From Candidatus Termititenax sp. (GTDB lineage Bacteria > Margulisbacteria > Riflemargulisbacteria > GWF2-35-9 > DYQY01), in contig DYQY01000003.1 of the NCBI GenBank assembly GCA_020719045.1, forward strand, positions 62,001 through 126,000: a stretch of DNA of 64,000 nucleotides, written 5' to 3'. The translations under genes were made by a program, and so were the position numbers. This document shows positions 42,674-64,000 of the stretch, in pieces. How positions within the stretch are numbered: the stretch's first letter is position 1; each line of letters opens with the position of its first letter. Under the pieces are notes generated by a model that saw nothing but the letters and a program-made list of their open reading frames with translations, did no database searches and was not told where the DNA came from.

Positions 42674-42699
42674 CATACCAAACAAGTAGGAATAGTATG
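42674..42699 (+). promoter_or_regulatory. Imperfect inverted repeat, possible IscR operator
   Basis: CATAC (42674-42678) and GTATG (42695-42699) form an inverted repeat spanning 26 bases over the predicted transcription start. This is a suitable place for autorepression by the Rrf2 protein encoded next. It does not match the E. coli IscR consensus closely. Confidence 0.35.
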
Positions 42700-42701
42700 A
42701 A

Positions 42702-44286: not shown

Positions 44287-44287
44287 A

Positions 44288-44722: not shown

Positions 44723-44761
44723 ACATGGTACAATAGTTAAAAAATTTTGGAGGATTAATTA

Positions 44762-45241: not shown

Positions 45242-45510
45242 TGAAAGTAGCAGCCGAAGGTAAGTTTGCCTTTGAGGAAATTGGTACAAGTGAAATAATT
45301 GGGTTCGTTTCTTGTGGTGGTTGTCCTGGGAAAAAAGCTGTAACCAGAGCTAAAATGATGGTTGATAGAGGCGCAGAAGCAATACTGGTAGCTTCATGCA
45401 TAAGCAAAGGAAATCCCATTGGTTTTCCTTGCCCACATTACGAAAAGATGCAAGAAAGCATAGAAAAGAAAATCGGGACTCAAGTAAAATTAATTGGATG
45501 GACTCATTAA
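45241..45510 (+). CDS. CGGC domain protein, N-terminally short
   Basis: Protein of 89 residues matching the C-terminal two thirds of CGGC-domain proteins: FAFEEIGTSEIIGFVSCGGCPGKKAV, MMVDRGAEAILVASCISKGNP, FPCPHYEKM and LIGWTH. Family members I recall begin with about 20 more residues carrying an RCxxT...CPGT motif; here the protein starts directly at KVAAEGKFAFEE, with the ATG touching the FabZ stop. The cysteines suggest metal or cluster binding. Function of the family is unknown to me. Confidence 0.8.
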   Translation: MKVAAEGKFAFEEIGTSEIIGFVSCGGCPGKKAVTRAKMMVDRGAEAILVASCISKGNPIGFPCPHYEKMQESIEKKIGTQVKLIGWTH

Positions 45511-45562
45511 CCGTCTGTAAACAAAAAATTAGCATATTTACTCTTAATTAGGAGGTTTTTGC

Positions 45563-48234: not shown

Positions 48235-48277
48235 TAAAACCCCTTCATTTAAACAGAAAACATCGTTCTTTTCTGTT

Positions 48278-48291
48278 TTGACTTAAGTCAA
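48278..48291. promoter_or_regulatory. Perfect 14-base palindrome, Crp/Fnr-type operator
   Basis: TTGACTTAAGTCAA, which is TTGAC-N4-GTCAA, lies between the divergent Crp/Fnr and ferredoxin-hcp genes. It has the half sites and spacing of Fnr/Dnr/HcpR-type boxes. Confidence 0.8.
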
Positions 48292-48349
48292 TTCTATTAT
48301 GCTTATAGTATATCAAAATTACTACAGAAAAAAGAAAGGAGTTATAATT

Positions 48350-49144
48350 ATGGTACTCAGAAAATTCATCGAAATAAATGAAGATAAATGTAATGGTTGT
48401 GGAAACTGCGTTGTTGACTGTGCGGAGGGCGCACTACAAATAGTTAATGGCAAAGCAAAAGTTGTCAAAGAACAATTCTGCGACGGTCTAGGTGCTTGTA
48501 TTGGTAGTTGCCCAGTTGATGCACTTAAAATAGCAGAAAAAGATGTAGCAGAGTTTGACGAACACGCTGTTGAAAAACATCTAAAAAGCAATAACAACCC
48601 AAAACTACAGCTAGTTAAAAAAGAAGAAAAAAAAGGCTGTGGTGGAGGATGCCCTGGAACTAGAGCTATAGAAATCAAAAGAAACATTAACTCAGAAGTA
48701 AACAGGCAGAGTTTTCATGAAGAACAAGGCATCAAACATGGAGTGACAGGTAAAGATAGCGCAATTATTCGAGAAAACTCAAGCTGTTTAACCCAATGGC
48801 CTGTGCAACTTCACCTGATTAGCCCACAAGCTCCATACCTTAAAGGAGCTAAGCTTCTTGTTGCCGCAACTTGTTCAGCCTTTTCGTACGGTAATTTCCA
48901 TCATGATTTTATTAAAGATCATATTGTAGTTGTTGCTTGCCCGAAGCTTGATAAAACAGAACCATACGTAGATAAACTTACAAGAATTATTACGGAAGGA
49001 GGGATTGCATCAATAACAGTAGTTAGAATGGAAGTACCATGTTGCGGTGGTCTAAGCCATCTTGTCAAAGAAGCTATCGCTAATTCAGGGAAAAAACTTC
49101 CATACTTAGAAGAAGTCATTACAGTAGATGGGAAAATTAAGTAG
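48350..49144 (+). CDS. 4Fe-4S ferredoxin-domain protein, partner of Hcp
   Basis: Protein of 264 residues from the ATG at 48350 (AAAGGAG upstream). Residues 14-60 carry two 4Fe-4S clusters: C14-X2-C17-X2-C20-X3-C24, then [24 protein letters not shown] segment follows, and residues 140-264 form a second domain with [36 protein letters not shown] and MEVPCCGGL. This two-domain protein is commonly found beside hcp in anaerobes and probably supplies electrons to it. A long hairpin separates it from hcp. Confidence 0.9.
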
Positions 49145-49148
49145 GAAT

Positions 49149-49180
49149 AATCCCCCTGATGCTTTTGCATCAGGGGGATT
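49149..49180 (+). promoter_or_regulatory. Long perfect hairpin between ferredoxin and hcp genes
   Basis: A 14-base arm, AATCCCCCTGATGC (49149-49162), pairs perfectly with GCATCAGGGGGATT (49167-49180) around a TTTT loop. What follows is A-rich, not a T run, so it is not a standard terminator on the plus strand. A 3'-end stabiliser or processing site that sets the ferredoxin:hcp ratio is plausible. Confidence 0.65.
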
Positions 49181-49208
49181 ACAAAAAATAAAAAAGGAGA
49201 AATATAAT

Positions 49209-50783
49209 ATGAGTATGTATTGCAATCAATGTCAGGAAGCAGCAAGGGGAGTTGCTTGTACAAAAGTAGGAGTCTGCGGAAAGAACGAAACTGTTTCTAA
49301 CCTACAAGATTTATTAATCGACACTCTACAGAAACTAGCTGTAAAACTAAAAGGAACAAAAGTAAGCGATGAGCTAACTGCTTATATCCTAAAAAGCTTG
49401 TTTCAAACAATAACTAATGCAAACTTTAGCCAGTCAGATATCATAAAAAGTATCAGAAAAGGTCTTATTATAACTGATGCTGAATTAGCTAGTGCAAGTG
49501 ATGCTGAACTTATCGCAAAGTCAGCAGAAGTTGGATTCGAAACAATTGCAAACGATGATATTCGAGCGCTTAAGTCTCTAGTTATCTTTGGACTTAAAGG
49601 ACTTGCTGCTTATGCTGAGCACGCTGCAAACCTCGGTCACCATGATGAAGCAATTACAAATTTTATTGTAAAAGCACTTGCTATGGTAGAAGATGAAAAC
49701 GCTGCAGCAGATGCGCTAGTAGCCTTGACCATCGAAACTGGTCAATTTGGCGTAACAGCAATGGCACTACTAGATACAGCGAATACTTCTGCTTACGGTA
49801 ACCCTGAAATATCAGAAGTTAACCTTGGAGTAAGAAAAAACCCTGCTATTCTTATCAGCGGTCATGACTTAAAGGATATTGAAGAGCTATTAGCACAAAC
49901 TGAAGGCACTGGAGTAGATGTATATACTCACAGCGAAATGTTACCTGCTAACTACTATCCAAAGTTCAAAAAATACGATCATTTAGTTGGCAACTATGGA
50001 AACGCATGGTGGAAACAAAACGAAGAGTTTGAAAAGTTTAACGGGCCAATCCTTTTTACCACAAACTGTATTACGCCACCTAAGACTTCATACAAAGACA
50101 GAGTCTACACCACTGGAGCAGCTGGATTCGATGGTTTTCCTCATATAGCAGACAGAGTTACTGGACAGCCAAAAGACTTTTCTGCAATCATTGAACACGC
50201 AAAAAGACTACCTGCTCCTACTGAAATAGAAACAGGAAAAATAGTCGGCGGGTTTGCTCACGCACAAGTGTTAGCTCTTGCAGACAAGGTAATAGCAGCT
50301 GTTAAATCTGGCGCTATCAAAAAGTTCGTTGTAATGGCAGGTTGTGACGGTAGAATGCAGTCAAGAAATTACTATACTGAATTCGCAGAAGCGCTTCCTA
50401 AAGATAGCGTTATTCTAACTGCAGGTTGTGCAAAATATCGCTACAACAAACTAAACCTTGGTGATATAGGTGGTATTCCAAGAGTTCTTGATGCTGGTCA
50501 ATGTAATGACTCTTACTCATTAGCTGTAGTAGCTTTAAAACTTAAAGAAGTATTTGGACTAGACGATATTAACGACCTACCTATTGTTTATAACATTGCT
50601 TGGTATGAACAAAAGGCTGTTATCGTTCTATTAGCACTACTTTCTCTTGGTGTTAAAAACATTCACCTTGGACCAACGCTTCCAGCGTTCTTGTCTCCAA
50701 ACGTAGCAAAAGTTTTAGTTGATACTTTTGGTATCGGTGGCATCACAGATGTTGCTTCAGACATCAAAACAATGATTGGTTAA
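49209..50783 (+). CDS. hcp: Hybrid cluster protein (hydroxylamine/NO reductase)
   Basis: Hybrid cluster protein of about 524 residues. The N-terminal cluster motif is C5-X2-C8-X8-C17-X5-C23, the spacing of the 4Fe-4S form of anaerobes and not the 2Fe-2S form of E. coli. Hybrid-cluster ligands lie in GHD (ISGHDLKD), [30 protein letters not shown] and [10 protein letters not shown]. It reduces hydroxylamine and NO in nitrosative stress defence. The ATG at 49209 has AAGGAGA upstream. It is expected to be controlled together with the ferredoxin gene through the palindrome at 48278. Confidence 0.96.
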
Positions 50784-50792
50784 AATTAAAAT

Positions 50793-50831
50793 AATTAGGT
50801 CCCCGCAATCAGAATTTGCGAGGACCTAATT
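50793..50831. terminator. Bidirectional terminator-like hairpin between hcp and AEC permease gene
   Basis: AATTAGGTCCCCGCAA (50793-50808) pairs with TTGCGAGGACCTAATT (50816-50831) with one mismatch. Both arms end in AT-rich sequence, and it sits between two convergent genes; the right arm runs into the AEC gene stop codon. Confidence 0.65.
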
Positions 50832-51759
50832 AAAAAATTATTATCGATAAATAATAGTGAAAAATCATAAAAACAAAACTGAGCAAAGACGTTAAAATAA
50901 CTATCCCAGAGATTTCAGAAACCTTATACTTATACACTTCTGCCAATACAACCAAAGCAACAGCAGCAGGGATTGCAGTCTGAAGTAATAAAAACTGCTG
51001 AGTTTCAAAAACGTAAAAATCTACGTAAAACATTCTTAGTAAAAACATAGAAAAGAACAATCCTATTGGTAGGCTTATAAATCTAAAAAGAGAGTAAAAA
51101 AGCGCAGCCCTAATCTTTTCTATTGAAAAGTTATCATATAAAAAGATTCCTAATGAAAATACAGCCACGCCACCAGCAGCATGCCCCAACATTTCAAACG
51201 AACTATGCAAAAAACTTTCCCTAAACCCAACCAAAGAAAACAAAAGCCCAACAGCTATAGCTATTAACAATGGATTATATTTTAGATTTTTAAAAATCTT
51301 TTTAACACTTATGTCATCACTTGCAAACTCAAACATAATAAGGCTTAAAAAGATACCGATTGCCCCAAGCAAAGAAGCTGTAATTACTGCATTATAATAA
51401 TACGAACCACTTTGGAAAGACTCAAAAAAAGCTAATCCGAAGAAAGCATTACTACCCATAATTACAGATAATGAAAGCAGAATAAACATGTCCTTATTAA
51501 TCGCGCTAAGAGTAAACAAAACAATTAATGCAATCCAAACTAACAATATCGGGACTATCGATCCCCACACAATAACAGGCTCTATTTCTGACAACTGCAA
51601 CAAAGAAATCTTTGCAAGAAACAAAGCAGGCAAACTGAAATAATATACAAAAGATGAAATAACCTTAACATCCGACTTCTGAAAGATATTTGCTCTTCTA
51701 CTAAGAGCTCCTAATCCAATCAAAATAAATAAAACTAATAGGCTCTGAATTACTTCCAT
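50830..51759 (-). CDS. AEC (auxin efflux carrier) family permease
   Basis: Inner-membrane protein of 309 residues with ten TM helices split into two five-helix halves by a short polar loop (DDISVKKIFKNLKYNPLLIAI). The family's KxFKNLxxNP text at the loop and PAAVALVVLAEVYK near the end are visible. Bacterial members move small organic acids such as malate; the substrate here is unknown. TATAAT lies 6 bases before the ATG with no ribosome binding site. Confidence 0.85.
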   Translation of the reverse strand: MEVIQSLLVLFILIGLGALSRRANIFQKSDVKVISSFVYYFSLPALFLAKISLLQLSEIEPVIVWGSIVPILLVWIALIVLFTLSAINKDMFILLSLSVIMGSNAFFGLAFFESFQSGSYYYNAVITASLLGAIGIFLSLIMFEFASDDISVKKIFKNLKYNPLLIAIAVGLLFSLVGFRESFLHSSFEMLGHAAGGVAVFSLGIFLYDNFSIEKIRAALFYSLFRFISLPIGLFFSMFLLRMFYVDFYVFETQQFLLLQTAIPAAVALVVLAEVYKYKVSEISGIVILTSLLSFVFMIFHYYLSIIIF

Positions 51760-51765
51760 ATTACT

Positions 51766-51771
51766 ATTATA
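51766..51771 (-). promoter_or_regulatory. -10 element, probable leaderless promoter of AEC gene
   Basis: TATAAT on the minus strand, 6 bases before the ATG at 51759. Confidence 0.5.
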
Positions 51772-51819
51772 CCTATACTTCTATTAAAATAATAATTAAT
51801 AAGAACAAAGGAGTAAAAA

Positions 51820-52080
51820 ATGACACACTCAATCTCAACAACTTGGTTAAATAATATGGGGTTTGAATCAACAATTGATAATCATAAAATTACGCTTGAT
51901 GCAATGAAAGACCACCCTAAATTCTACACTTCTATCCATATCATCTATGAGTTTGATAAAAGTGTTCCAAAGGCCAGTGCAGAAAAAGCAATCGGGCTTT
52001 CTCTAGAAAAATACTGTAGCGTAAACTATACGCTTAAGCAGTTGGCTAAGATTACACATGAAATAAAGTTTATAGAATAA
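51820..52080 (+). CDS. OsmC-like protein with the central third deleted
   Basis: Protein of 86 residues. The start (TTWLNNMGFESTIDNHKITLDA) and end (HPKFYTSIHIIYEFDKSVP, KAIGLSLEKYCSVNYTLKQLA) match the first and last parts of OsmC/YhfA-type proteins. In full-length members these are separated by about 50 residues holding the PxELLLxALAGCT segment with the first peroxidatic Cys. Here LDA is followed at once by MKDHPK. Only the second conserved Cys (in KYCSV) remains. AAAGGAG precedes the ATG. It may be a small stable remnant or a decaying gene. Confidence 0.75.
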   Translation: MTHSISTTWLNNMGFESTIDNHKITLDAMKDHPKFYTSIHIIYEFDKSVPKASAEKAIGLSLEKYCSVNYTLKQLAKITHEIKFIE

Positions 52081-52099
52081 AACCTATCTAGATTTTCTT

Positions 52100-52462
52100 A
52101 TGTTAAAAAAATGTAAATCTAACCTATGTTTTAGTATATTTACTATTCTCATATTACTCTTTTCAACCTACGTTTCAGCACTTGAACGTAATCAATATGC
52201 ATTAGATACCATTATTACTTCTCGACATGATGGACCAGGATATTACGATAATAATGTCCTCAGACCATTCAATGAAAATAATTTCGGAATAGGCATTAGT
52301 AACGGACTCGATGTCGATAAAGACTTAATGATAGGTCACTTCAAAAACAGTTACCACAGAGACACTTTTTATGCTGGAGTATTCTGGCACAAAGAATTTA
52401 AATTAGGTCTCTCTGCTTCACTTTCTAGTCATCTCTCTTGCAGTTTAGATAAACTAAACTAA
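52100..52462 (+). CDS. Short secreted protein, probably a truncated outer membrane or acyltransferase-like protein
   Basis: Protein of 120 residues with a signal peptide (SIFTILILLFSTYVSA). The mature part has alternating strands and the segment GHFKNSYHRDTFYAGVFW, reminiscent of small proteins I have seen annotated as barrel or acyltransferase-like. It ends abruptly after a Ser/Leu-rich stretch, and I find no continuation in other frames. I cannot name a function. It begins 19 bases after the OsmC-like gene. Confidence 0.45.
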   Translation: MLKKCKSNLCFSIFTILILLFSTYVSALERNQYALDTIITSRHDGPGYYDNNVLRPFNENNFGIGISNGLDVDKDLMIGHFKNSYHRDTFYAGVFWHKEFKLGLSASLSSHLSCSLDKLN

Positions 52463-52549
52463 TCCACCTCTCAACGCTAATTTACTCTTTGTAGCTCATC
52501 AAACAATACTTAATGACATATTCGAAAAAAGCTCTACAGAGTGGTCACT

Positions 52550-53392
52550 CTATTGGGATAAATAAATACCTAGAACAACTAAAGAGGTGCCCCCAAAAAT
52601 AGTTAAATAATTTCCAAAATGCTTCGTCTTGTCACTATCAAATATAATCAGTGCTTTTTCCCTAAAAACAATAACCATAATAGAAAGAATTGATAACGCT
52701 GATGCCATTCCTAGCGCAATTAATACAACCGATAACAACCCAAGCCACAACATCTTATGTGACGCAAAATAGGTTAAGAAAAGTAACGTCCCAGGGCAAG
52801 GCACTATCCCAAGCACAAACGGAAGCAGTGCATGATGAACATGTTCCTCTTCTGAACAGCTCTTCTTCCTTATGGTCTTTACTCCTTTATAAACTATATA
52901 TACTCCCAAAATTGAAATTATATAATAGCTTATCTTCTGCATAATTGCCTCATAGCCAGAGCCACCAAAGACAGGCACAATCTTTGAAAGTAATAACATT
53001 CCTGCAAACAGAAATAAGGCAGAAAAAGAATGCATCAAACTAAAAACAAAGCCAAACACAATACCTTTTATTGGGGGTGCTTTTGTTCCCACAAAGTATG
53101 AAACAGCTATCACTTTACCATGACCTGGACCAAGTGCATGAAAAAAACCATATAAAAAAACCGCAAATAAAATTATAGCTAAATAACCACTACTTGGCTC
53201 CTGCTTAATCGCTTTTGTTTTCCGTGAAATATCATTTCGAATATCTCTTTGTATCATGACTATATTATTAATTACTGGTGCCATAATACTTATCTTCACG
53301 GCACCCTCTGTTGACTGTGGCTTGCTTTTAACTAGCATCGGGTTAGCAAATAATATAGTAGAAATAAAAAGTACAAAAATTAGTTTATTCAT
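52550..53392 (-). CDS. NicO/RcnA family nickel/cobalt transporter
   Basis: Integral membrane protein of 280 residues with six or seven TM helices. The metal-site motif HALGPGHGK is in the first TM block (GFFHALGPGHGK), with HSFSALFLF and LGIVPCPGTLLFLTYF following, all NicO/RcnA features. The first 60 residues include a signal-like helix and a periplasmic stretch (NNIVMIQRDIRND). It overlaps the DUF1007 gene by 4 bases. Export or uptake of Ni/Co (possibly other divalent metals) cannot be told apart from sequence. Confidence 0.88.
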   Translation of the reverse strand: MNKLIFVLFISTILFANPMLVKSKPQSTEGAVKISIMAPVINNIVMIQRDIRNDISRKTKAIKQEPSSGYLAIILFAVFLYGFFHALGPGHGKVIAVSYFVGTKAPPIKGIVFGFVFSLMHSFSALFLFAGMLLLSKIVPVFGGSGYEAIMQKISYYIISILGVYIVYKGVKTIRKKSCSEEEHVHHALLPFVLGIVPCPGTLLFLTYFASHKMLWLGLLSVVLIALGMASALSILSIMVIVFREKALIIFDSDKTKHFGNYLTIFGGTSLVVLGIYLSQ

Positions 53393-53970
53393 TTCTTCTT
53401 AATCCTCATCTCAAATCCCTCTGGAACTATCATACCCTGATAATAAGCATCTTGCTTCCTTATTTTCTTTGTTAATTCGATTGAGTGTGATTGTGCCTCT
53501 CTTGCTATAATCGGAGAACTTCTAACTGGGGCAACATGAATATAGTATGTAGGATCAAAAAACATAACGACAAAATCTTTCTCTTGATAACTACTTTTTA
53601 TCGTACAAGGAATAAAAAACCTATACACAATTTTCCCATCCTCAAAAAAAGAATAAAAATCTTTAATGTATTCAGGGTAAAAAACCTTACCATCAATATA
53701 AAACTTTGCGAAATAATGATACTCTTTTAGATTATCAAAGGCTTCTGCTTTGAGTTTCTTTAATTCCTGCTCTGAAAATTTTTTATTTGAATCAGCATCA
53801 TACATCGCCACATAGGAACTAAACATCTCGTCAAAATACCAAGTTGCTTCAACGCCCTCAATCCCTTCATAATTAAAGCAAACGGTTGCTTTGTAATCTA
53901 TAAATGTATGCGGATGAGCATAAAATATTGAGGTAATGAAAAAAAGAAAAACTATAAGCTTAATCCTCAT
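53389..53970 (-). CDS. DUF1007 periplasmic protein
   Basis: Protein of 193 residues with a signal peptide (IKLIVFLFFITSIFYA). The mature protein starts at HPHTFIDYKATV, the His-rich opening typical of DUF1007, and has a WYFDEMFSS segment and an EF-hand-like DADSNKKFSEQEL. DUF1007 genes usually lie next to NicO-type transporters, as here (4-base overlap), and may bind metal in the periplasm. TATAAT lies 8 bases before the ATG. Confidence 0.85.
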   Translation of the reverse strand: MRIKLIVFLFFITSIFYAHPHTFIDYKATVCFNYEGIEGVEATWYFDEMFSSYVAMYDADSNKKFSEQELKKLKAEAFDNLKEYHYFAKFYIDGKVFYPEYIKDFYSFFEDGKIVYRFFIPCTIKSSYQEKDFVVMFFDPTYYIHVAPVRSSPIIAREAQSHSIELTKKIRKQDAYYQGMIVPEGFEMRIKKK

Positions 53971-53978
53971 TTACATCT

Positions 53979-53984
53979 ATTATA
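53979..53984 (-). promoter_or_regulatory. -10 element, probable leaderless promoter of DUF1007-NicO operon
   Basis: TATAAT on the minus strand, 8 bases before the ATG at 53970. Confidence 0.45.
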
Positions 53985-54156
53985 AATGAAACAACATAAA
54001 CCTAACACCTTCAAGATTTTCGAGCCAATTCCCATACTCTTTTCTATCATTACAACGTAGACGTGAATCATTTCTATTAATTAGGGGAGTTCAACTCTCT
54101 CAATTTGACAAAATTAGACCTAGTTTTCTGATACTTACAACACTAATCAAAACAAT

Positions 54157-54209
54157 CCTTCCCTTTTCAAGGGAAGGTGGACTGTGCGTCTAGCACAGGA
54201 CGGAAGGGT
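54157..54209 (+). repeat. Dispersed intergenic hairpin element, copy 2, with adjoining hairpin
   Basis: CCTTCCCTT (54157-54165) pairs perfectly with AAGGGAAGG (54169-54177). Immediately after, GGGAAGGTGG leads into a hairpin CTGTGC/GCACAG (54182-54187, 54193-54198) and then GACGGAAGGG. The GGTGG and ACGGA arms match copy 1 at 6301-6328, read on the other strand. The element lies just past the feoB stop codon, in the 240-base gap before the DUF1007 gene, and could act as a terminator for feoB. The rest of the gap shows no gene. Confidence 0.6.
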
Positions 54210-54210
54210 G

Positions 54211-56349
54211 CTATAAAAACAACAATCCTATTCTATAAACCAAGAACGAAGCTAGCCACGCAACCGACATTGCATATGCAGAATATATACCAACTATCTT
54301 CCAAGAACCTGATTCCTTTCTAAAAACTGCAACTGCCGCAATACAAGGAATATATAGAAGAACAAAGACCATTAAAGACAAGGCTTTAGCTTTATTAAAG
54401 AAAGGATCATCTTGAAGTTTTTGTCTTAAATCAACAGAACTTTCATCCGCTTCACCCAAAGAATATATTGTACCCAAAGTTGAAACCACTACTTCTTTTG
54501 CAGCTAATCCAGTAACCAAGGCTATTCCTATTCTCCAATCAAACCCCAGTGGCTTAATGGCTGGTTCTATTATTTTCCCAGCTCTACCAGCAAAAGAATG
54601 CTCTAGCTGTAAAGATGCTTCTTTATAATCCAACTCTTCTATTCTTCTTTGTCTCTCTGTTTCAGAAAGCTCAGAACTTTTTTGTACTTGTGCTCTTAGT
54701 GAAGCATAATCAGTGGCAATTGTTTCGTTATGAGGAAAAGTACTAACTACCCAAATAATGATAGAAGCTAGCAAAATAACTGTTCCAGCCTTTCTCAAAT
54801 ACATTTCAGCCTTTATCTTAGCTTGCATTACAATAGACTTAATCGTTGGCATTCTGTACGGTGGTAGCTCCATAACAAAAGGCTCCGACTCACCCTTAAA
54901 GATTGTTTTCTTAAGTAACAAGGCGGAAACAACAGCAATTAACACACCAAACAAATATACACCAAACAAAACATTCCCAGCCATCTGCGGCGTAAAGAAA
55001 GCTCCTATTAACAATACATACACTGGCAACTTAGCACCACAACTCATAAAAGGAATAATCATCATTGTTACTATCCTGTCACCACGGTTCTTTAGTGTTC
55101 TTGTTGCCATAATCGCTGGAATAGAACATCCAAACCCAGTAATCATAGGAAGAAACGATTTACCATGTAGCCCAACAGCATGCATTACTTTATCTACAAC
55201 AAACGCTGCTCTTGCCATATACCCTGTCCCCTCTAGAATAGACAATGCTATAAAAAGAAGAACAATATTTGGAAGAAAAACAACAACTCCACCCACACCA
55301 GCAATAACTCCATCAACTAAAACTGAACGCAACATCCCTTCAGGAATAATCATGCTTGCAAACACAGATAAATACTCAAACCCGTTCTCTATCCAACCCA
55401 TTGGCGCTTCTCCAAGCCTAAATGAAAACTGGAATACAAGCCACATTATCAAAAAGAAAAAAGGCAAACCTAAAAATCTATTAATTAAAAAAGTGTCTAT
55501 CCAAGCAGTAATGCTTTTCTTTGTAACCTCATTATATTTAACTGTTTCCTGAACTGCACCTCTAATAAATGCATTAATATCCTCAACTATCACTATCTCT
55601 GGCTCATCAAACCCATTCTTTAAAAATTCTTTAAACGTATCCTGTAATATTAGCTCTATTTTGAGCCAAATTGGATACTCTTTAACTATCGAATATACTT
55701 GCTTATCATTTTCTAGTAACTTTATAGCTAACCATCTTGGTGAATACTTACTCAGCGATTCCTCTAGCTGTAGCACTTCTTCTAGGCTTTCAATTTTTTC
55801 TTCAATTCTTTCACTAAAAGCAAGCTTATTCTTTGCTATCACTATATTTCCAGAATCCACACTTATTATATGCTCAAGCAAATCGTCTAGCCCTGTTTTC
55901 TTAACTGCAGAGGTAGGAATAACATGTGAGCCGAACAACTGCTCCAATAATTGCACATCTATCTTTGTTCCCTGCTTCTCTACTTCATCATACATATTAA
56001 GCGCTACAATCATGTTCGTTTCAAGCGCCATAAGCTGTACTGTAAGAGCTAAATTCCTTTCCAGATTTGTCCCATCAACCACATTGACCACAACATCAGG
56101 TCGTTCATTAATTAGATAGTCTCTAGCTAGTACCTCCTCAGGAGAATACGCAGTCAAAGAATACGTTCCTGGCAAATCCACAAACCTAATCGTATGATCT
56201 TTATACTTACGAGTACCTTCGTGCTTCTCGATAGTTACGCCAGCCCAATTACCAACCTTCTGATTTGCTCCAACCAGCTCGTTAAAAAGGGATGTCTTTC
56301 CACTGTTGGGATTCCCTGCCAAAGCTACTCTTATCTCTTTATTTACCAT
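54211..56349 (-). CDS. feoB: Ferrous iron transport protein B
   Basis: Inner-membrane Fe(II) transporter with an N-terminal GTPase; 712 residues. G1 GNPNSGKTSLFNEL, G3 DLPGTYSL, G4 LNMYDE, and G5-like PTSAVKKTG. Two Gate-type TM blocks follow (GTGYMARAAFVVDKVMHAVGLHG then GFGCSIPAIMATRTL). The C-terminus is short. The gene overlaps feoA by 11 bases; both are downstream of a DtxR-type box at 56663-56676. Confidence 0.97.
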   Translation of the reverse strand: MVNKEIRVALAGNPNSGKTSLFNELVGANQKVGNWAGVTIEKHEGTRKYKDHTIRFVDLPGTYSLTAYSPEEVLARDYLINERPDVVVNVVDGTNLERNLALTVQLMALETNMIVALNMYDEVEKQGTKIDVQLLEQLFGSHVIPTSAVKKTGLDDLLEHIISVDSGNIVIAKNKLAFSERIEEKIESLEEVLQLEESLSKYSPRWLAIKLLENDKQVYSIVKEYPIWLKIELILQDTFKEFLKNGFDEPEIVIVEDINAFIRGAVQETVKYNEVTKKSITAWIDTFLINRFLGLPFFFLIMWLVFQFSFRLGEAPMGWIENGFEYLSVFASMIIPEGMLRSVLVDGVIAGVGGVVVFLPNIVLLFIALSILEGTGYMARAAFVVDKVMHAVGLHGKSFLPMITGFGCSIPAIMATRTLKNRGDRIVTMMIIPFMSCGAKLPVYVLLIGAFFTPQMAGNVLFGVYLFGVLIAVVSALLLKKTIFKGESEPFVMELPPYRMPTIKSIVMQAKIKAEMYLRKAGTVILLASIIIWVVSTFPHNETIATDYASLRAQVQKSSELSETERQRRIEELDYKEASLQLEHSFAGRAGKIIEPAIKPLGFDWRIGIALVTGLAAKEVVVSTLGTIYSLGEADESSVDLRQKLQDDPFFNKAKALSLMVFVLLYIPCIAAVAVFRKESGSWKIVGIYSAYAMSVAWLASFLVYRIGLLFL

Positions 56350-56638
56350 GACAGTGTCCTTTCTTTTCTTTGTTGCAACAACGCATTGGCTCTCCGTCTC
56401 CTACCTCTCCAATCTTAACAACATTAATATTCTCAGCTTCCTCAACTCTGAGCATCAAATGACAGCCTCTAAAGCTTATTTCTATTGGATCGCCTAAAGG
56501 TGCTTTTCTAACCACTTTTACTTTTAAGCCTTTCGTAACACCCATGTCTAGAAGTCTTCTTCGAATTTCTCTTGCGGCTTTAACAAAAACAATCTCTGCC
56601 TTGTCTCCTGGTTTTAACTCAGACAATTTGCTTTCCAT
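56339..56638 (-). CDS. feoA: Ferrous iron transport protein A
   Basis: SH3-like accessory protein of 99 residues: LSELKPGDKAEIVFV, RRRLLDMGVTKGLKVKVV and APLGDPIEISFRG are FeoA hallmarks. The C-terminal tail CCNKEKKGHCHGK is rich in Cys and His and may bind metal. AAGGAGAAAGAAT precedes the ATG. The promoter region is shared with the divergent DtxR-type regulator. Confidence 0.95.
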   Translation of the reverse strand: MESKLSELKPGDKAEIVFVKAAREIRRRLLDMGVTKGLKVKVVRKAPLGDPIEISFRGCHLMLRVEEAENINVVKIGEVGDGEPMRCCNKEKKGHCHGK

Positions 56639-56662
56639 ATTCTTTCTCCTTTGTCTCGCAAA

Positions 56663-56676
56663 TTAGGATTGCCTAA
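56663..56676. promoter_or_regulatory. DtxR-type iron box between feoA and the DtxR regulator gene
   Basis: TTAGG-ATTG-CCTAA, a perfect 5+5 inverted repeat with a 4-base spacer, embedded in AATTAGGATTGCCTAATTAG. The known DtxR/IdeR consensus begins TTAGGTTAGCCTAA with the same spacing. It lies 25 bases upstream of feoA and 63 bases upstream of the regulator gene, so one site could control both. Confidence 0.82.
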
Positions 56677-56738
56677 TTAGTTAAGTCTAATTTATAATAA
56701 ATCAAGAACATTGTCAACAATTAATTAAGGATTAACAA

Positions 56739-57104
56739 ATGAAACCAACTTCTGCAATGGAAGATTATCTAGAAGGGCTACTCAACCTAGAAAAAGGGGG
56801 GATTGAAACACGAGTTAAAAATCTTGCTAAAGAACTTAGCATTAAACCACCCTCTGTAATAGAAATGGTTAAAACTCTTATAAGCAAAGGATATATTACC
56901 CAAGAAAATCGCAAAGAAATCCATCTAACTGAAGCTGGAATGGAAATAGCAAATAATACTCGCAAAAAACACTCTGCTATTAAATCTTTCCTGCTAGAAA
57001 CACTTAAGGTTGATGAAGCTACTGCTGAAATAGATGCTTGCAAAATTGAGCATTGTTTAAGCCCAAAAACCTATGAACAACTAATCAACTTTATGAAGCA
57101 ATAA
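56739..57104 (+). CDS. DtxR/MntR family metal-dependent regulator
   Basis: Protein of 121 residues. The N-terminal winged helix is MEDYLEGLLNLEKGG, RVKNLAKELSIKPPSVIEMVKTL and GYITQENRKEIHLTEAGMEIA, followed by a dimerisation domain with the metal-ligand region KKHSAIKSFLLETLKV and IDACKIEHCLS. The SH3-like third domain is absent, as in MntR-type members. It is divergent from feoAB across a DtxR-type box and is the obvious candidate to bind that box and the one at 60041. Confidence 0.92.
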   Translation: MKPTSAMEDYLEGLLNLEKGGIETRVKNLAKELSIKPPSVIEMVKTLISKGYITQENRKEIHLTEAGMEIANNTRKKHSAIKSFLLETLKVDEATAEIDACKIEHCLSPKTYEQLINFMKQ

Positions 57105-57139
57105 CTTTTATTCCATATACTCTATAAACAAATTATTTA

Positions 57140-58192
57140 TTATACTAAAAAATAATTATTAACCGAGAACTCATATTGCTGAATAAATAACTCTTTTAAA
57201 TAAGCAATACTATTCTGTTCATAAAAAAACAACATTGCTTTCTTATATTCAACACTATCAACACTACGATATGATAAAGGACAAGCACCAAAAGCATTTA
57301 GTATTGCATTACCAGCCAACCTAGCCGTCCTCTTGTTCCCGTCCACAAAAGGTTGAATATAAGAAATAAGAGCAATAATAACAAGTGCCTTATGAAATGG
57401 ATCTTCATATGCATTAATCAAACCAACACTACTCTCTAGTGCCTCTTGTATTTGTTGCTTATTATCTAATGGTCTATAGTTTGTTCCAGTAATACTCACT
57501 AAAGAATTCCTTACACCAAAACCAACTGAAAGATTCTGAACCAACAATGCATGAATATCCTCAATCTTCCTTACACTCATTTCAAGATAATCTATTTTAC
57601 TAGAAAAAACATAGTTTAATGCAGTTTTATGATTTAATATCATTATTGCCTCTTCCTTGCTATGTCCTGGTGCCTCTCTGTTTTCCTTAATAAGAGCCTC
57701 CGTATCCAAAAGAGAATAAGTATTACCTTCAATCTGTGAGGATTTCCAACTAAGCTCAATAGTCAGTCTCTCTATTTCCTTTTTAAATATATCTGGCGAT
57801 ATACTAGAAATATTTGTTGTGTACTTCTTAGTTAATTGCGCCAAATTCTTAAGCTCTTTTAAAGAAAATATATCTGAAAAATCATTAAATATATTAAAGT
57901 TAAAGCTTTTTTTTACTTCCCTATTATCTGGCTCTAATAAAAAATATTTTTGCGGATCAAAATAACTCAATAAGGAACTATTCATATATACTCTATACTT
58001 CGTACTTCTTCCTTCTCCCTCTTTTTTAATTAACTTTTCATTAATCAACACTTCAATGTCACGAACTATTGTTATTCGAGAAACATCATCATAGGTTTCA
58101 GCCAAAAATTTCTTTATTTCACTATTAGAAACTAAAGATTTGGCTCTAATAAAATCATAAATATTATACTGTCTTTGCGTTAATTGTTTCAT
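57140..58192 (-). CDS. Fic domain protein with N-terminal winged helix and Gln in the active site
   Basis: Protein of 350 residues. A DeoR-like winged helix (residues 1-70: RQYNIYDFIRAKSL, SRITIVRDIEVLINEKLI) is followed by a Fic domain. The Fic active-site motif reads Q280-PFVDGNKR, with Gln in place of the catalytic His of HPFxDGNxR. The inhibitory helix motif SSQIEGN is at 151-157. Without the His, AMP transfer by the usual route is not expected; a regulatory role or alternative chemistry is possible. I do recall Fic homologues with Gln here, so it may be a subfamily. No toxin or antitoxin partner is adjacent. Confidence 0.85.
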   Translation of the reverse strand: MKQLTQRQYNIYDFIRAKSLVSNSEIKKFLAETYDDVSRITIVRDIEVLINEKLIKKEGEGRSTKYRVYMNSSLLSYFDPQKYFLLEPDNREVKKSFNFNIFNDFSDIFSLKELKNLAQLTKKYTTNISSISPDIFKKEIERLTIELSWKSSQIEGNTYSLLDTEALIKENREAPGHSKEEAIMILNHKTALNYVFSSKIDYLEMSVRKIEDIHALLVQNLSVGFGVRNSLVSITGTNYRPLDNKQQIQEALESSVGLINAYEDPFHKALVIIALISYIQPFVDGNKRTARLAGNAILNAFGACPLSYRSVDSVEYKKAMLFFYEQNSIAYLKELFIQQYEFSVNNYFLV

Positions 58193-58285
58193 GCTAATAG
58201 GCTAATTGTAACATTTTGAAACAATTAATCAATTGACTGGTCAAAATATCAGTAATAAAAAGGAACTTTTTAGTATCCCTTGTTG

Positions 58286-58291
58286 TATAAT
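58286..58291 (+). promoter_or_regulatory. -10 element, probable leaderless promoter of lipoprotein gene
   Basis: TATAAT followed by 6 bases and the ATG at 58298; no ribosome binding site. Confidence 0.5.
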
Positions 58292-58297
58292 ATTGAT

Positions 58298-58777
58298 ATG
58301 AAGAAAAAATTTCTCATTTTTCTATTACCAATGTTATTGCTTCTAACCGGCTGTCAAACAACTATGTTAGTAGAAAAGGTCGACATGAAAACATTTACAC
58401 CACTGCTAATCGACTATGCCTCACTTAACGGATACAAGATTCTATACAGAAACGATGCAACAGGTGCTTACAGGATACATTTAGGACAAATGTATATACC
58501 CGCACAACTAGAAACTTATAAAGAAAAAACCACGCAACTACTTACCTACAATGTTCAATATGAGCTTACCAAACAAGAAGAAACAACCTTTAGAGCCATT
58601 AGCCAAAAAGACCAATATATTGATTTAGTTGTTATGGTAAGAGTATTTCAGCAAAATAACGACATCAGAATAAACATTGAGGCCGACAACACAAACTACT
58701 ATCAACCAACATCATCACAAGCAAATAAATTCCGAAGATACTTGGAAAATTCTGGTTATACTGTAAGAATATTATAA
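58298..58777 (+). CDS. Small lipoprotein of unknown function
   Basis: Protein of 159 residues with a lipoprotein signal (KKKFLIFLLPMLLLLTGC), Cys19 being the lipidation site. The mature domain is of mixed alpha/beta type with Tyr-rich strands and no catalytic motif. The start is chosen at 58298 because the signal peptide begins there and TATAAT lies 6 bases upstream. A second secreted protein follows after 9 bases, so they probably form a two-gene unit. Confidence 0.7.
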   Translation: MKKKFLIFLLPMLLLLTGCQTTMLVEKVDMKTFTPLLIDYASLNGYKILYRNDATGAYRIHLGQMYIPAQLETYKEKTTQLLTYNVQYELTKQEETTFRAISQKDQYIDLVVMVRVFQQNNDIRINIEADNTNYYQPTSSQANKFRRYLENSGYTVRIL

Positions 58778-58786
58778 GGAGCTAAA

Positions 58787-59209
58787 ATGAAAATAAATAC
58801 ATCTGTTCTATTTGTGCTAATTATAATCTTAAGCTTCTCCTTAGCTCAGACTAGGGTTTACAAACAAGAGAAAAGTGTAGCTGTTCACCAAACAGGCAAA
58901 GTTGTGGAATCAAAGGATGAAGGTAATTTGTTTGAGATTACACTTGAGGTAGATGAAACAAGCGATATTGTCACAAAAACAACCATAAGACGATTAGACC
59001 AAAACGAAACTAGAACAATAAACAAAAGCTACTCTATCAAAAAAGATAAAAACACACTCGGCAGTGCAATGGGCGAAGGCGGTAAAACAATCATCGCCGT
59101 AGCTGACAACGGCGATGAGATTCTTGAGATAGGTGATGAATTTTTATTTTCATCTAAAGGTAGTGCCTTCTCACAAATGATTACTGGCGTTTACCGTAGA
59201 TTACGCTAG
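58787..59209 (+). CDS. Secreted protein of unknown function
   Basis: Protein of 140 residues with a signal peptide (SVLFVLIIILSFSLAQ). The mature part is beta-rich and charged, and near its end has GDEFLFSSKGSAFSQM. AAGGAG precedes the ATG by about 6 bases. I do not recognise the family. Its stop is directly adjacent to the stop of the convergent porin gene. Confidence 0.65.
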   Translation: MKINTSVLFVLIIILSFSLAQTRVYKQEKSVAVHQTGKVVESKDEGNLFEITLEVDETSDIVTKTTIRRLDQNETRTINKSYSIKKDKNTLGSAMGEGGKTIIAVADNGDEILEIGDEFLFSSKGSAFSQMITGVYRRLR

Positions 59210-60013
59210 CTAAAATACATAAGATACTTTAGACATAAACTGCATTGTTCTTCCAGAACCATCATCACTATTCACCGACTCTAGAAATAGGTCTAAGTCT
59301 TCATCTAGCACAACTTTTAATCCACAAATTATTGCCTGTTTTTCAGCTGCACCAACCTTAGCTGTCTCATATCTTGAAAGCAATTCATATTCATCACTCA
59401 CTGGATACGTTAACCCTATAGCAAGGTAATTATCATAACCTTTAGTTACATACTCACCATCAAAAGCTATTCCCCACAAACCTACCTCTCCAAAGACACC
59501 ATATGCTACCTTCTCGTTTGCATCCTTAAGCCCAGAAAGACCCAGAAAAAGTGAATCATTAAAAGAATATTTACCTCTTAAAACATACATATTTGTAACG
59601 TCTTTAGTAGAATTATGAACTCCACCGATCAACTCTAAATCACCTTTATTAAAAACAAAATTAACACCTGGCTTATATTTCTCGAAATCTGCCTTCAGAA
59701 ATGGATCACTTACTGCATGCGTCTTAAATTCCCCAAACCTCACTAACATTTGTCCTGCCCTCAAGCTTAAACAATCTGTCATCTTATATCCAACAGAATA
59801 GGACTCAATCGCATCGTTCTTCCAAATAAGCTGCGCATCAACCTTATTTTTAAGTGGAGCATTAATCTGAACAATATAATCCTCTGGCACAAACTTCTGC
59901 AACCCACTCTTATACTTAAGCTCAAAAAGCCCACTCACATCAACATTTGCACTAACTATACTAAAAACACTAACGAGCAAAGTAACCTTAACTGATTTTC
60001 CGTTTATACTCAT
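59210..60013 (-). CDS. Outer membrane porin, predicted to be metal-regulated
   Basis: Protein of 267 residues. A signal peptide (VKVTLLVSVFSIVSA) is followed by DVSGLFELKYKSG and about 14 alternating amphipathic strands, with the final residue Phe (MSKVSYVF), the usual signal for the barrel assembly machinery. It resembles OprO/P-type and other small porins (LRAGQMLVRFGEF). AAGGAGGG lies 8 bases before the ATG. A DtxR-type box (60041-60054) lies 28 bases upstream, almost identical to that of feoAB, so it may admit iron or manganese when metal is scarce. Confidence 0.78.
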   Translation of the reverse strand: MSINGKSVKVTLLVSVFSIVSANVDVSGLFELKYKSGLQKFVPEDYIVQINAPLKNKVDAQLIWKNDAIESYSVGYKMTDCLSLRAGQMLVRFGEFKTHAVSDPFLKADFEKYKPGVNFVFNKGDLELIGGVHNSTKDVTNMYVLRGKYSFNDSLFLGLSGLKDANEKVAYGVFGEVGLWGIAFDGEYVTKGYDNYLAIGLTYPVSDEYELLSRYETAKVGAAEKQAIICGLKVVLDEDLDLFLESVNSDDGSGRTMQFMSKVSYVF

Positions 60014-60040
60014 AATCTTCCCTCCTTATATTCGCCCTAA

Positions 60041-60054
60041 TTAGGCATCCCTAA
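60041..60054. promoter_or_regulatory. DtxR-type iron box upstream of the porin gene
   Basis: TTAGG-CATC-CCTAA, preceded on the plus strand by an overlapping CCTAATTAGG (60036-60045). On the minus strand it reads AAATTAGGGATGCCTAATTAG, which matches the feoA/DtxR box in all but the central spacer. Confidence 0.8.
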
Positions 60055-60132
60055 TTTATAGCAATTATTAGCTATTGTCAACAAAAAAAATTAAATTCAC
60101 CTAACAAAGGTCATCGAGTGACACTTAAAGCG

Positions 60133-60160
60133 TTGTATCGAGATGACAAAATGCTATACT
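60133..60160 (+). promoter_or_regulatory. Sigma70-type promoter, probably leaderless, of methyltransferase gene
   Basis: TTGTAT (60133-60138), 16-base spacer, TATACT (60155-60160), then 7 bases and ATG at 60168; no ribosome binding site. Confidence 0.6.
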
Positions 60161-60167
60161 AAATATT

Positions 60168-60896
60168 ATGTACAATGACTTTGCAAATATCTATGATGAA
60201 TTATTTCCTATAAGTGAGGCTCAAAAAACTTTCTTTTTAGAACTAGTAGAACGTACGGCTTCGCCTAAAAACTTACTAGACATAGGCTGCGGAACTGGCG
60301 AACTAGCTATTGCACTTGACCCACACCACAACTATATAGCAGCAATTGACTTAGATGCCTCCATGATTGGCAAGGCTACACTTAAGCAACATAGCAAACA
60401 CCTCGACTTCAAACAAATGAATATGAAGCATATCGACAACGTGTTTTTCAATCATTCATTTTCAATAATAAGCTGTCTTGGGAACACTTTACCACATCTA
60501 ACATCTACATTAGAGATACAAATGTTCATAAATAGTTGTCATGTACTGCTCAGGAAGAAAGGAACTCTTATCCTACAATTAATGAATTACGACAAAATAT
60601 TATCTGAAAACATAACCACCTTAGCCAACATTGAAACAATCAATTATCTATTTGAAAGACAATATGAAATAAGAAACGAAGAAAAAGTTATCTTTAGAAC
60701 AATCGTAACCAACAAAAAAACCAAGGAAGAGAAGGTATCAGAAACAACACTTTACCCTATTAGAAAAGAAAAACTTGTCCAAATTCTAAGCGATTGCGGA
60801 TTCGAAAATATCATCACTTACGGTAGCTTTAAAAAGGATGATTTCACCACCAGCTCCGATGTGCTGATTATTGAAGCTACTACTAAACTAAACTAG
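60168..60896 (+). CDS. Class I SAM-dependent methyltransferase
   Basis: Cytoplasmic enzyme of 242 residues. The start (MYNDFANIYDELFP) and motif I (LLDIGCGTGELAIAL), motif II/III text (AAIDLDASMIGKA, ISCLGNTLPHL) and a beta-rich C-terminal half are typical of small-molecule methyltransferases. Substrate unknown. It is the last intact gene before the remnant region at 60.9-61.4 kb. Confidence 0.88.
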   Translation: MYNDFANIYDELFPISEAQKTFFLELVERTASPKNLLDIGCGTGELAIALDPHHNYIAAIDLDASMIGKATLKQHSKHLDFKQMNMKHIDNVFFNHSFSIISCLGNTLPHLTSTLEIQMFINSCHVLLRKKGTLILQLMNYDKILSENITTLANIETINYLFERQYEIRNEEKVIFRTIVTNKKTKEEKVSETTLYPIRKEKLVQILSDCGFENIITYGSFKKDDFTTSSDVLIIEATTKLN

Positions 60897-60913
60897 CAAC
60901 TTACTGCCTGATC

Positions 60914-61105
60914 TTAAAGTCCCAACCTTGAAGGAACTTTCCATGTAGGGATATGTTTTTGCGCTCTATCAACATGTTTTGAGTGATCATCAAAGAATAT
61001 GCCTGCAGATATCTTTTGTAAAATCCCCGTTTTGTCTTTTCCTCCCATAGAAAATACCCTATTTACAAAAAGTCCCCACTCAATAAAAGTATACATAGCT
61101 CTCAA
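60914..61105 (-). pseudogene. C-terminal remnant of a 5'-nucleotidase
   Basis: A 63-residue frame starting at TTG reads like the C-terminal end of the 5'-nucleotidase family (PF06189 type): LRAMYTFIEWGLFVNRVF, SMGGKDKTGILQKI, SAGIFFDDHSKHVDRAQ and IPTWKVPSRLGL. The IFFDDxxxH and GGxDKxxIL motifs are well preserved, but the whole N-terminal catalytic part is missing, and upstream DNA encodes something else. Confidence 0.75.
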
Positions 61106-61147
61106 AAAGCATCTTCACTTCTAGCTGTTAGGTAGTGTACTGAAGAT

Positions 61148-61333
61148 ATGTTTACTGAATTATTAATTAACTGGCATAAAAAATGGTCTTATACTCACCG
61201 AAGATTACGTTCAGCGTATCGTAGTTTAAAGACCAACTTACCCTATCTTTTTACCTATAAAAACTATCCAGAATTGTGTCTTCCAAATACTACAAATTCA
61301 CTGGAGGGTTCCTTCTCTTCTTTAAACGAATAG
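61148..61333 (+). pseudogene. Transposase C-terminal fragment (insertion sequence remnant)
   Basis: A 61-residue frame contains THRRLRSAYRSLKTNLPYLF and PNTTNSLEGSFSSLNE, which I recognise from the C-terminal part of full-length transposases (PNTTNSLxGxFxxLK, MULE/IS256-like type; exact IS family not certain). Both ends are missing, no terminal inverted repeats are visible, and the frame stops where the family normally continues. Confidence 0.7.
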
Positions 61334-61421
61334 AGGTCAAAAGCAGTAAGGCAGATTCACTTAGATTCATTCCAAAGGAAGAAATGCAGAAAGAAGGCTA
61401 CGGAAAGTATCTTTATTTATT
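61334..61421. other. Residual sequence between transposase remnant and phoU
   Basis: No intact gene. A frame offset from the transposase fragment runs on to TAA at 61426-61428 and would encode an SLRFIPKEEMQKEGYGKYL-type tail of unknown origin. It may be the end of a disrupted gene or chance. Confidence 0.3.
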
Positions 61422-62084
61422 TCAGTAAGATTTTTTGATTTTACCGTTAATAATAAAGGCAATGCGCTCCCCGATGTTTTCTATGTGGTCTCCAATTCTT
61501 TCAAGGAACCTAGTGATAAATAGGAGGTGAACGTCTAGACTAATGTTTTGTGGGTCAGAGTTTGTGCTCATCTTATTAATAAGTTTATTAAAAAGGTCTC
61601 GCTGGATGGCATCTATTTTATCATCCATTTCTAGTGTTTCGTTGGATAATCTTAGGTTACGTTCTTTTAAAGAAATCATTATTTGTTGAGACATTTGTCT
61701 AAGCAGAATTATCATTTCAGTTAACGAGTAAAAATGTTCAAAGTCACCAATAATGATGGCTTTTCTTGATTTTCTTGCTATTTTTCTTAGATGGTCTCCA
61801 ATTCTTTCTAAGTTGGAGCTGATTTTTAAAGCACTTAAAATATATCTTAAATCAACACCCATTGGTTGATATAGGGCTAGCATTTCAGTGCTGTAAGTTT
61901 CAACTTTATTTTCTAATTCATCAAGCTGAGAATCTAGTTCAAGGATTATAGTAAGCTCAGCTTCATTCATACTTCTTTTTTGATATGAGCTTAATATTCT
62001 GTTGAAGATATCATCAATGGTATCACCCATTTGAAGTAGTAATTTTTCTGTCTCATCTAATTTATCATGAAAAGCGTTTTGCAT
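61422..62084 (-). CDS. phoU: Phosphate transport regulator PhoU
   Basis: Two three-helix bundles in 220 residues, with the repeated metal-binding pattern: ELDSQLDELENKVETYSTEML and SNLERIGDHLRKIARK in the first half, DDKIDAIQRDLFNKLI and TRFLERIGDHIENIGERI in the second. It restrains Pst uptake and PhoR signalling when phosphate is plentiful. It is the last gene of the pstC-pstA-pstB-phoU operon, 10 bases after pstB. No phoB or phoR is in the window. Confidence 0.95.
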   Translation of the reverse strand: MQNAFHDKLDETEKLLLQMGDTIDDIFNRILSSYQKRSMNEAELTIILELDSQLDELENKVETYSTEMLALYQPMGVDLRYILSALKISSNLERIGDHLRKIARKSRKAIIIGDFEHFYSLTEMIILLRQMSQQIMISLKERNLRLSNETLEMDDKIDAIQRDLFNKLINKMSTNSDPQNISLDVHLLFITRFLERIGDHIENIGERIAFIINGKIKKSY

Positions 62085-62094
62085 TTTTACCTCC

Positions 62095-62868
62095 TTATCC
62101 GAATCTTCCGGTTATGTAGTCTGTTGTTTCTTTATTCTTTGGTGTTGTAAATAATTGTGACGTTTTACTATATTCAATAAGTCTTCCTATTCTACTTTCA
62201 TCAGTGCTAAAGAAGGCTGTGTAGTCTGATACTCTAGCTGCTTGTTGCATGTTATGTGTAACTATTATTATAGTAACGTCTTTTGTTAATTCTCGCATTA
62301 AATCTTCAATTTTTAGTGTTGCAATTGGATCAAGCGCTGAACAAGGCTCATCCATTAGAAGAATTTGGGGGTTTACTGCAAGTGAGCGTGCTATGCATAA
62401 TCGTTGTTGCTGTCCTCCAGATAAAGAAAGTGCGGATTGTTTTAGTTTGTCCTTAACTTCTTCCCACAAGAAAACTTTTTTTAAATATTGCTCAGTTAGT
62501 TCATGAAGTTTTCCTTTATTTTTTGTGCCATGTATTTTTGCTCCATACTGAACATTGTCCTCTATGGACATAGGAAAAGGGTTTGGTTTTTGAAAAACCA
62601 TTCCGATATTTTTTCTTAAAGAAACAACATCAACAGAGGAATCGTAAATACTCTGTTCGTTGTATAAAATATCACCAGTGTGAGAGGTATTAAGGATAAG
62701 CTCATTCATTCTGTTCATTGATCTTAGAAAAGTTGATTTCCCACATCCTGATGGGCCAATTATTGCAGTTATAAGATGTTCCTTAATAGATATTGAGATG
62801 TTTTCTACTGCAGCTTTTTTGCCATAGAAGAAGGTAAAGTCCTTTGTCTCTAAGATGTGCTTTTTCAT
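62095..62868 (-). CDS. pstB: Phosphate ABC transporter ATP-binding protein
   Basis: ATPase subunit of the high-affinity phosphate importer; 257 residues. Walker [11 protein letters not shown]-loop [13 protein letters not shown] (PstB-typical), signature [16 protein letters not shown], Walker [14 protein letters not shown] and the H-loop [13 protein letters not shown] are all intact. It overlaps pstA by 4 bases. Confidence 0.97.
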
Positions 62869-63719
62869 TTTTTTAAATCCTTTCTAAATTTCATTCGTAG
62901 CGAAGATGAAATTATGTTAAGCAGTAAGGTAAGTATAAGTAGTACGCTTGCTGTACTGTAGGCGATGCCCCTGACTCCATCTATGTCATGATGTTGTGTT
63001 GACATAATATAGAGATGATAGGGGAGTGCCATAAATTGGTTGTTTAGATTTAAGGAAAGATTTGGAATATAAAAGGCAACGCCTGTAAATAAGATAGGAG
63101 CTGTTTCTCCCATTGCCCTAGAAACCCCCAAAATAATACCAGTTAAGATTCCTGGCATGGCAACTGGAAGTGTGGTTTTGGTTAGCACCTGCCACTCCGT
63201 TAGACCAAGGCTGTATCCTGCTTGTTTTAGTGCAGAAGGTACTGTTTTAAGTGCTTCTTCTGACGTAGTAATAATGGTTGGTAGTGTAAGAATGCCTAGC
63301 GTTAGCCCAGCACTTAATGCTGAGGTTCCAAATTGTAGTGATTTAACAAATATTGCAAGTCCAAAGAGCCCGTATACTATGGAAGGGACCGCTGCCAGGT
63401 TTCTTATTGATATACGGATAAGATTTGTGTAGTAGCTATCTTTAGCATATTCACATAGGTAAATAGCGCTGAATATTCCAAGCGGGATAGCCATTAGGGC
63501 AGAAACCATAGTTACTAAAATAGTGCCAATGATTATTGGAAATATTCCACCTTCTGACATACCATTTTTAGGTGCATTTAGAATGAATCCTAAGTTAATA
63601 GTCCCTATAGAGTTTTTTACTAAAATGGCAGTGATTGTAACAAGAAAGATAGCAATAAAAGCTATAGATGAGAATAGTAAGAAATAGACAAGAGCTTTAA
63701 TGATAGGGTTTTTTAGCAT
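62865..63719 (-). CDS. pstA: Phosphate ABC transporter permease PstA
   Basis: Inner-membrane permease of 284 residues with six TM helices. PstA-type text includes [46 protein letters not shown] and the coupling-loop [23 protein letters not shown], then [17 protein letters not shown]. It overlaps pstC by 7 bases and pstB by 4. Confidence 0.96.
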
Positions 63720-64000
63720 TTTAGTTTATGACCTTTTTTTATGAACATTTCTGCAATATTGTTTATAATAAAAGCAAGAATAAACAGTACTAATCCAATG
63801 CCAAAGAGTGCGTGGTAATGAGTTGAGTAGTAGGCTACTTCGCCTAATTCTATCGCAATAGTTGCTGTGATGGTTCGAATTGGGTCAAAGATATTTCCGG
63901 TGAAGCGCAGAGCGTTACCGCAGGCCATTAAGACTGCCATTGTTTCGCCAATAGCGCGACCAAACCCAAGCATAATTGAAGCAATTATTCCAGATTTAGC
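63713..64000 (-). CDS. pstC: Phosphate ABC transporter permease PstC, C-terminal part (partial)
   Basis: The frame is open to the last base of the window; 95 residues are visible and the gene continues beyond it. AKSGIIASIMLGFGRAIGETMAVLMA is the end of the EAA coupling loop of PstC, followed by one TM helix (LVLFILAFIINNIAEMFI) and a stop. Full-length PstC is about 300 residues, so two thirds lie outside. The substrate-binding pstS is presumably further upstream. Confidence 0.93.
   Translation of the reverse strand, partial: AKSGIIASIMLGFGRAIGETMAVLMACGNALRFTGNIFDPIRTITATIAIELGEVAYYSTHYHALFGIGLVLFILAFIINNIAEMFIKKGHKLKC

Follow-up and report, generated by a model that had tools for sequence, protein, structure and literature searches.

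A strand-composition reversal at a scar of three truncated genes probably marks the left breakpoint of a recent relocation and inversion in Candidatus Termititenax

Overview

The strand composition of this stretch of DNA changes sign at about 61.4 kb, at a scar of broken genes. We believe, with a probability of roughly 0.87, that this change is the left breakpoint of a recent rearrangement, a relocation combined with an inversion, whose skew is still un-readjusted. The best reading is that a block of approximately 14.5 kb of the chromosome was inverted and displaced and has retained the strand composition of its prior orientation. The process is ordinary genome rearrangement, which is already well known, and we propose no new mechanism. 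The window is the whole stretch analysed, 64,000 bases corresponding to bases 62001-126000 of contig C24 (163,646 bases). The draft genome has 1.75 Mb in 31 contigs, and all 31 were analysed as separate contigs. Positions given without a contig are those of the window.

Strand composition

The plus strand contains 8891 G and 12188 C at 1-60900, and 493 G and 416 C at 61430-64000. The raw skew declines steadily until approximately 61 kb and climbs thereafter; the change of slope that the original prediction proposed to look for on a wider scale is present. Its four hand counts of G and C were exact on recount. Raw counts confound replication with gene direction and protein content, so the fourfold-degenerate sites of simple ORF-based gene calls were used, split by gene strand. 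At these sites C predominated on the plus strand as far as 60.9 kb and G from 61.42 kb onward, whichever strand the genes lay on. The earlier statement that C exceeds G on the left for genes in both directions therefore holds at fourfold sites, whereas raw counts show no C excess, or even a slight excess of G, at 43-47 and 48-51 kb.

The fourfold GC skew of the contig left of the scar was -0.38 in plus-strand genes (975 G or C sites) and -0.21 in minus-strand genes (1764 G or C sites). In the flipped block (C24:123.4-137.8 kb, from phoU to the gene preceding tRNA-Tyr) it was +0.28 in both plus- and minus-strand genes, values that rest on 75 and 306 sites, respectively. The 95% ranges of the block and of the left-hand side do not overlap. 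The intergenic skew moved in the same direction (-0.14 on the left vs +0.03 in the block). The right side had also been described as G- and T-rich. The G excess stands at fourfold sites, but the T excess mostly reflects gene direction, as the fourfold TA skew is near zero in the block.

In 971 overlapping windows of 14.4 kb taken at a 1 kb step from 20 other contigs, the polarity-normalised skew had a mean of +0.19 and a minimum not below -0.11. The corresponding value of the flipped block was -0.28, well outside the range of these windows of equal length. All contigs were segmented into two states, with emissions fitted to the whole genome, and nearly every contig received a single sign. C17 and C24 departed strongly from this pattern, and C5 and the end of C28 contained weak switches. 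The log-likelihood ratio of the block was 45.7, for a segment that includes the first part of the adjoining defence island. The data indicate that the composition of the block is opposite to that of either flank, in plus- and minus-strand genes alike, as an inverted segment's would be.

Anatomy of the scar

The last intact gene left of the scar encodes a SAM-dependent methyltransferase (60168-60896, plus strand). Its orthologue in the genus-mate genome G001 (C90:1419-2138) is 72% identical and has other neighbours. The join itself consists of three truncated genes, including msrB, the ancestral neighbour of the block. The original prediction placed the switch at a 5'-nucleotidase remnant and a transposase remnant, both of which are real; it missed the third, the 3' end of msrB.

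The nucleotidase remnant is the 3' end of the gene, with its last 64 codons (60910-61114, minus strand; PF06189, profile positions 240-298 of 302). An intact homologue is present elsewhere in the genome on contig C7 (G000:C7:4253-5041), with a DNA identity of 89%, and the homology stops 4 bases beyond the stop codon. Synonymous changes account for 14 of the 20 changed codons, which indicates that both copies were functional during most of their divergence. The possibility that the fragment is an assembly-artefact copy of the C7 gene was rejected, given the 89% identity and the mostly synonymous changes. A search of 38 genomes, including this one, found this 5'-nucleotidase gene in none of the 37 relatives.

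The transposase fragment (61148-61327, plus strand) belongs to the IS256 family, variant Zn-binding type. It matches NF048019 at profile positions 224-277 of 304 (E 1.3e-20), that is 54 of the 304 positions with both protein ends absent, and because it is a fragment the match lies below the family's whole-protein cut-off. A related longer transposase ORF in contig 38 of genome G027 is 79% identical over 47 aa. On the right the fragment abuts msrB directly, and on the left it ends short of the nucleotidase. The terminal inverted repeats and target-site duplication of an IS256 element were absent at the scar, where no element remains, and no intact IS256 copy was found.

The third remnant is the 3' end of msrAB (61324-61430, plus strand), which encodes the MsrB C-terminus ending in LRFIPKEEMQKEGYGKYLYLFQ before the stop codon. 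It carries an internal in-frame deletion of 69 bp with TCAC at both edges, and these shared short sequences suggest that end-joining or slippage may have taken place during decay. Further msrAB sequence, including the 5' half, was not found in this genome; an intact msrAB is present in G001 (L166:18915-19979). The loss of msrAB would be a by-product of the rearrangement. The gene phoU, which faces the opposite way to the msrB remnant, ends at 61422. The left breakpoint is at the scar, with the 3' half of msrB retained.

The most likely change point of the composition is window position 60861 (95% 60402-62337). The nucleotidase and transposase pieces are C-rich like the left side (46 C/28 G and 37 C/28 G), and the msrB piece is G-rich like the right side (23 G/14 C). 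This indicates that the sign changes at or near 61324, a placement limited by the few bases counted in each short piece and by the broad change-point interval.

Content and extent of the flipped block

The block begins with phoU, pstB, pstA, and pstC on the minus strand (61422-64000), where the plus strand is G-rich. The pst operon runs on past the window, with pstS at contig 126.7-127.6 kb. The genes of the block are pst-phoU, exoD, mscS, an ACR3-type arsenite transporter gene, an arsC-like gene (both named by eye from translation starts), mgtE, ribD, rpe, rsgA, and a PASTA gene, with tRNA-Tyr at the far end (contig 137.82-137.91 kb, window-equivalent 75.82-75.91 kb). A search of Rfam gave tRNAs only. 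The flip is local: it extends for approximately 14.5 kb to tRNA-Tyr (~75.9 kb) and is followed by the defence island, and the original sign is regained by ~87.1 kb window-equivalent (the contig is negative again from ~149 kb). The right breakpoint is therefore bracketed between tRNA-Tyr (137.9 kb) and ~149 kb, an interval occupied by the island.

The defence-type island beside tRNA-Tyr (C24:138.4-149.2 kb, window-equivalent 76.4-87.2 kb; L010:18429-20000 and L011:1-9250) spans approximately 11 kb. It encodes TOTE primase-helicase, SLFN/AlbA, PLD/helicase, and RhuM proteins and a truncated serine recombinase without most of its catalytic domain. Its fourfold sites show a gene-strand effect alone, as would be expected of a recently acquired stretch. 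A 515-bp inverted repeat pair (93%) flanks the island, and more copies are present on contigs C3 and C26. An inverted repeat pair matching both ends of the block was not found. Inversion through inverted repeats at the block ends was rejected on this ground, the 515-bp pair, which is the sole inverted pair nearby, flanking the island instead.

Gene order in a genus-mate

G001 was the single same-genus genome compared, and both assemblies are fragmented drafts (31 contigs here and ~150 in G001). On contig C15 of G001 the order is tRNA-Tyr, PASTA gene, rsgA, rpe, ribD, mgtE (two copies), mscS, msrAB, and iscR-nifS-nifU onward. The two tandem mgtE genes (L166:11796-14715) correspond to one in this genome. 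Expressed in C24 coordinates, C15 runs from 137.9 to 123.36 kb and then from 104.63 to 114.08 kb, the two parts being linked by the intact msrAB. The orthologous block is thus reversed relative to the neighbouring block, hereafter block B, which extends here from iscR-nifS-nifU through feoB-feoA to the methyltransferase (42634-60896, ~18 kb) and has the native C-rich polarity of the plus strand. The flipped block meets the 42.63-kb end of block B with its msrAB end in G001, in a single polarity, whereas in this genome the same msrB end meets the 60.9-kb end of block B in opposite polarity. The fourfold skew of G001 is negative in nearly all genes from an sbcB-like gene to the end of C15, with no sign change. 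The flipped block is 70-76% identical to its G001 counterpart, a divergence equal to that of its neighbours, which argues that it is not foreign.

The pst-phoU genes are absent from G001. Their neighbours differ in each order-level relative examined, so the genes may have been gained, lost, or moved as a unit; these relatives did not establish the ancestral order. A pair of genes encoding an NreB-like transporter and a DUF1007-type protein (52550-53970) lies left of feoB here and beyond the methyltransferase in G001, in the same orientation. Judged from these positions, the shift of the pair is probably a separate small transposition. As the pair adjoins the methyltransferase in G001 and not here, this region must have undergone more than one rearrangement.

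Proposed course of the rearrangement

We believed that the event took place in this lineage after its split from G001. A block of approximately 14.5 kb would have reversed its orientation with respect to replication and shifted from one end of the neighbouring 18-kb block B to its other end. Strand-biased mutation would have had too little time since then to readjust the sign, and the old sign would persist. Because the block adjoins the opposite end of block B in G001, one simple in-place inversion cannot explain both maps; at least two inversions, or one inversion and one transposition, would be needed. The genes of the block would have left the lagging strand for the leading one. Given the transposase fragment at the join, an event related to IS256 is likely, and insertion of such an element in or near msrAB may have helped to cause the rearrangement. 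The element is a plausible but unproven cause: IS ends, a target duplication, another copy, and a repeat match at the far end were not found.

Reversed GC skew that is only slowly readjusted is an established way to recognise inverted segments (Merrikh and Merrikh 2018, PMC6220195), and a critique has called for such segments to be judged on fourfold sites and against related genomes (Liu and Zhang 2022, PMC9098844). Like the inversions in the former study, the present segment has a composition opposite to its surroundings, an orientation unlike that of a relative, and a partly readjusted skew. Unlike in that study, the call here uses fourfold sites on both gene strands together with the gene order of a relative, in keeping with the critique. 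In contrast to the cases stressed there, the genes here would have moved from lagging to leading, and the block was also relocated. The breakpoint resembles IS-associated rearrangement scars in having a truncated IS256-family transposase between two truncated genes, but differs from them in that IS ends, a target-site duplication, and a second IS copy are all missing. The site makes a clean worked example: strand composition, the gene order of a relative, and the broken ends of genes all lead to the same breakpoint.

Alternative explanations

An assembly chimera, in which unrelated stretches were fused at a repeat, would suit a multi-contig draft whose join sits at gene and transposase fragments, and the original prediction named it beside an inversion. 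The inversion part has held up; the assembly join is unlikely. Contig 122.0-124.5 kb matches the rest of the genome exactly over 25 bp at most, less than the 55-bp ends shared by neighbouring contigs, and with no longer exact repeat at the join a repeat-driven fusion is hardly to be expected. Three decayed genes with internal deletions are not an assembler's product, and restoration of the sign beyond the island would require two independent false joins. A very unlikely alternative places the rearrangement in the lineage of G001, with this genome keeping the ancestral order. Two genomes are too few for parsimony to identify the derived order, but the composition of G001 is uniform across the junction and its msrAB is intact, whereas here the sign is discordant and msrAB is a remnant; both differences indicate that the present order is the derived one.

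It is highly improbable that the sign reflects local codon bias or the gene content of the pst region, or that the block was acquired horizontally. The operon may be mobile, since pst-phoU is absent from G001 and its neighbours vary between families. However, the sign holds at fourfold sites on both strands in 15 genes, among them ribD, rpe, and rsgA, which have housekeeping roles; these three are orthologous to genes of G001 with the same divergence as their surroundings, and the G001 orthologues carry the native sign. The block as a foreign island was rejected by its equal divergence from G001. The chance that a replication origin or terminus lies at 61.4 kb is practically negligible. An origin does produce a plus-strand change from C to G, but here the sign reverts within 15-26 kb, and a terminus would switch from G to C. 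The genes dnaA, dnaN, recF, and gyrB lie with the same kind of switch on contig C17 (115.7-122.6 kb), where a lasting minus-to-plus change at ~119.4 kb is straddled by gyrB-recF-dnaN-dnaA (named by eye from translations, dnaA excepted). Six DnaA boxes occur on the whole of contig C24, none of them at 101.0-129.5 kb. An origin at the scar was rejected on the sign reversal, the dnaA/dnaN neighbourhood on C17, and the lack of a DnaA-box cluster near the scar, which had already been remarked on. The earlier preference for an inversion over an origin is borne out by these data, by the opposite polarity on both gene strands, and by the opposite orientation of the block in G001 without a sign change. 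A false origin candidate is removed, and the probable origin is placed on C17.

Age of the event

In the rearrangement favoured here, the degree of readjustment gives an indication of age. The minus-strand genes of the block have a skew of +0.28 (0.23-0.34), where +0.38 is expected just after inversion and -0.21 at equilibrium. As a rough figure, readjustment in these genes would be approximately 17% complete. In six orthologues of the block the gene-strand skew was -0.25 here vs -0.50 in G001 (p = 0.01, Fisher's test), and the weaker skew here is in the direction expected of partial readjustment. The skew of non-inverted control genes was also somewhat weaker here than in G001, so what looks like readjustment may in part be a feature of the whole genome.

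A burst of rearrangement in this lineage is a tentative and rather doubtful idea, suggested by two flipped blocks with lingering skew and by the surroundings of the present block, whose order departs from that of G001 in several further respects. If it is true, the relative ages of the rearrangements could be read from the degree of skew readjustment. The second block of reversed composition lies inside a negative domain at C17:47.6-67.9 kb (log-likelihood ratio 44.6), approximately 52-72 kb from the origin, and its genes, named by eye, run from tig, clpP, clpX, and lon to pyk.
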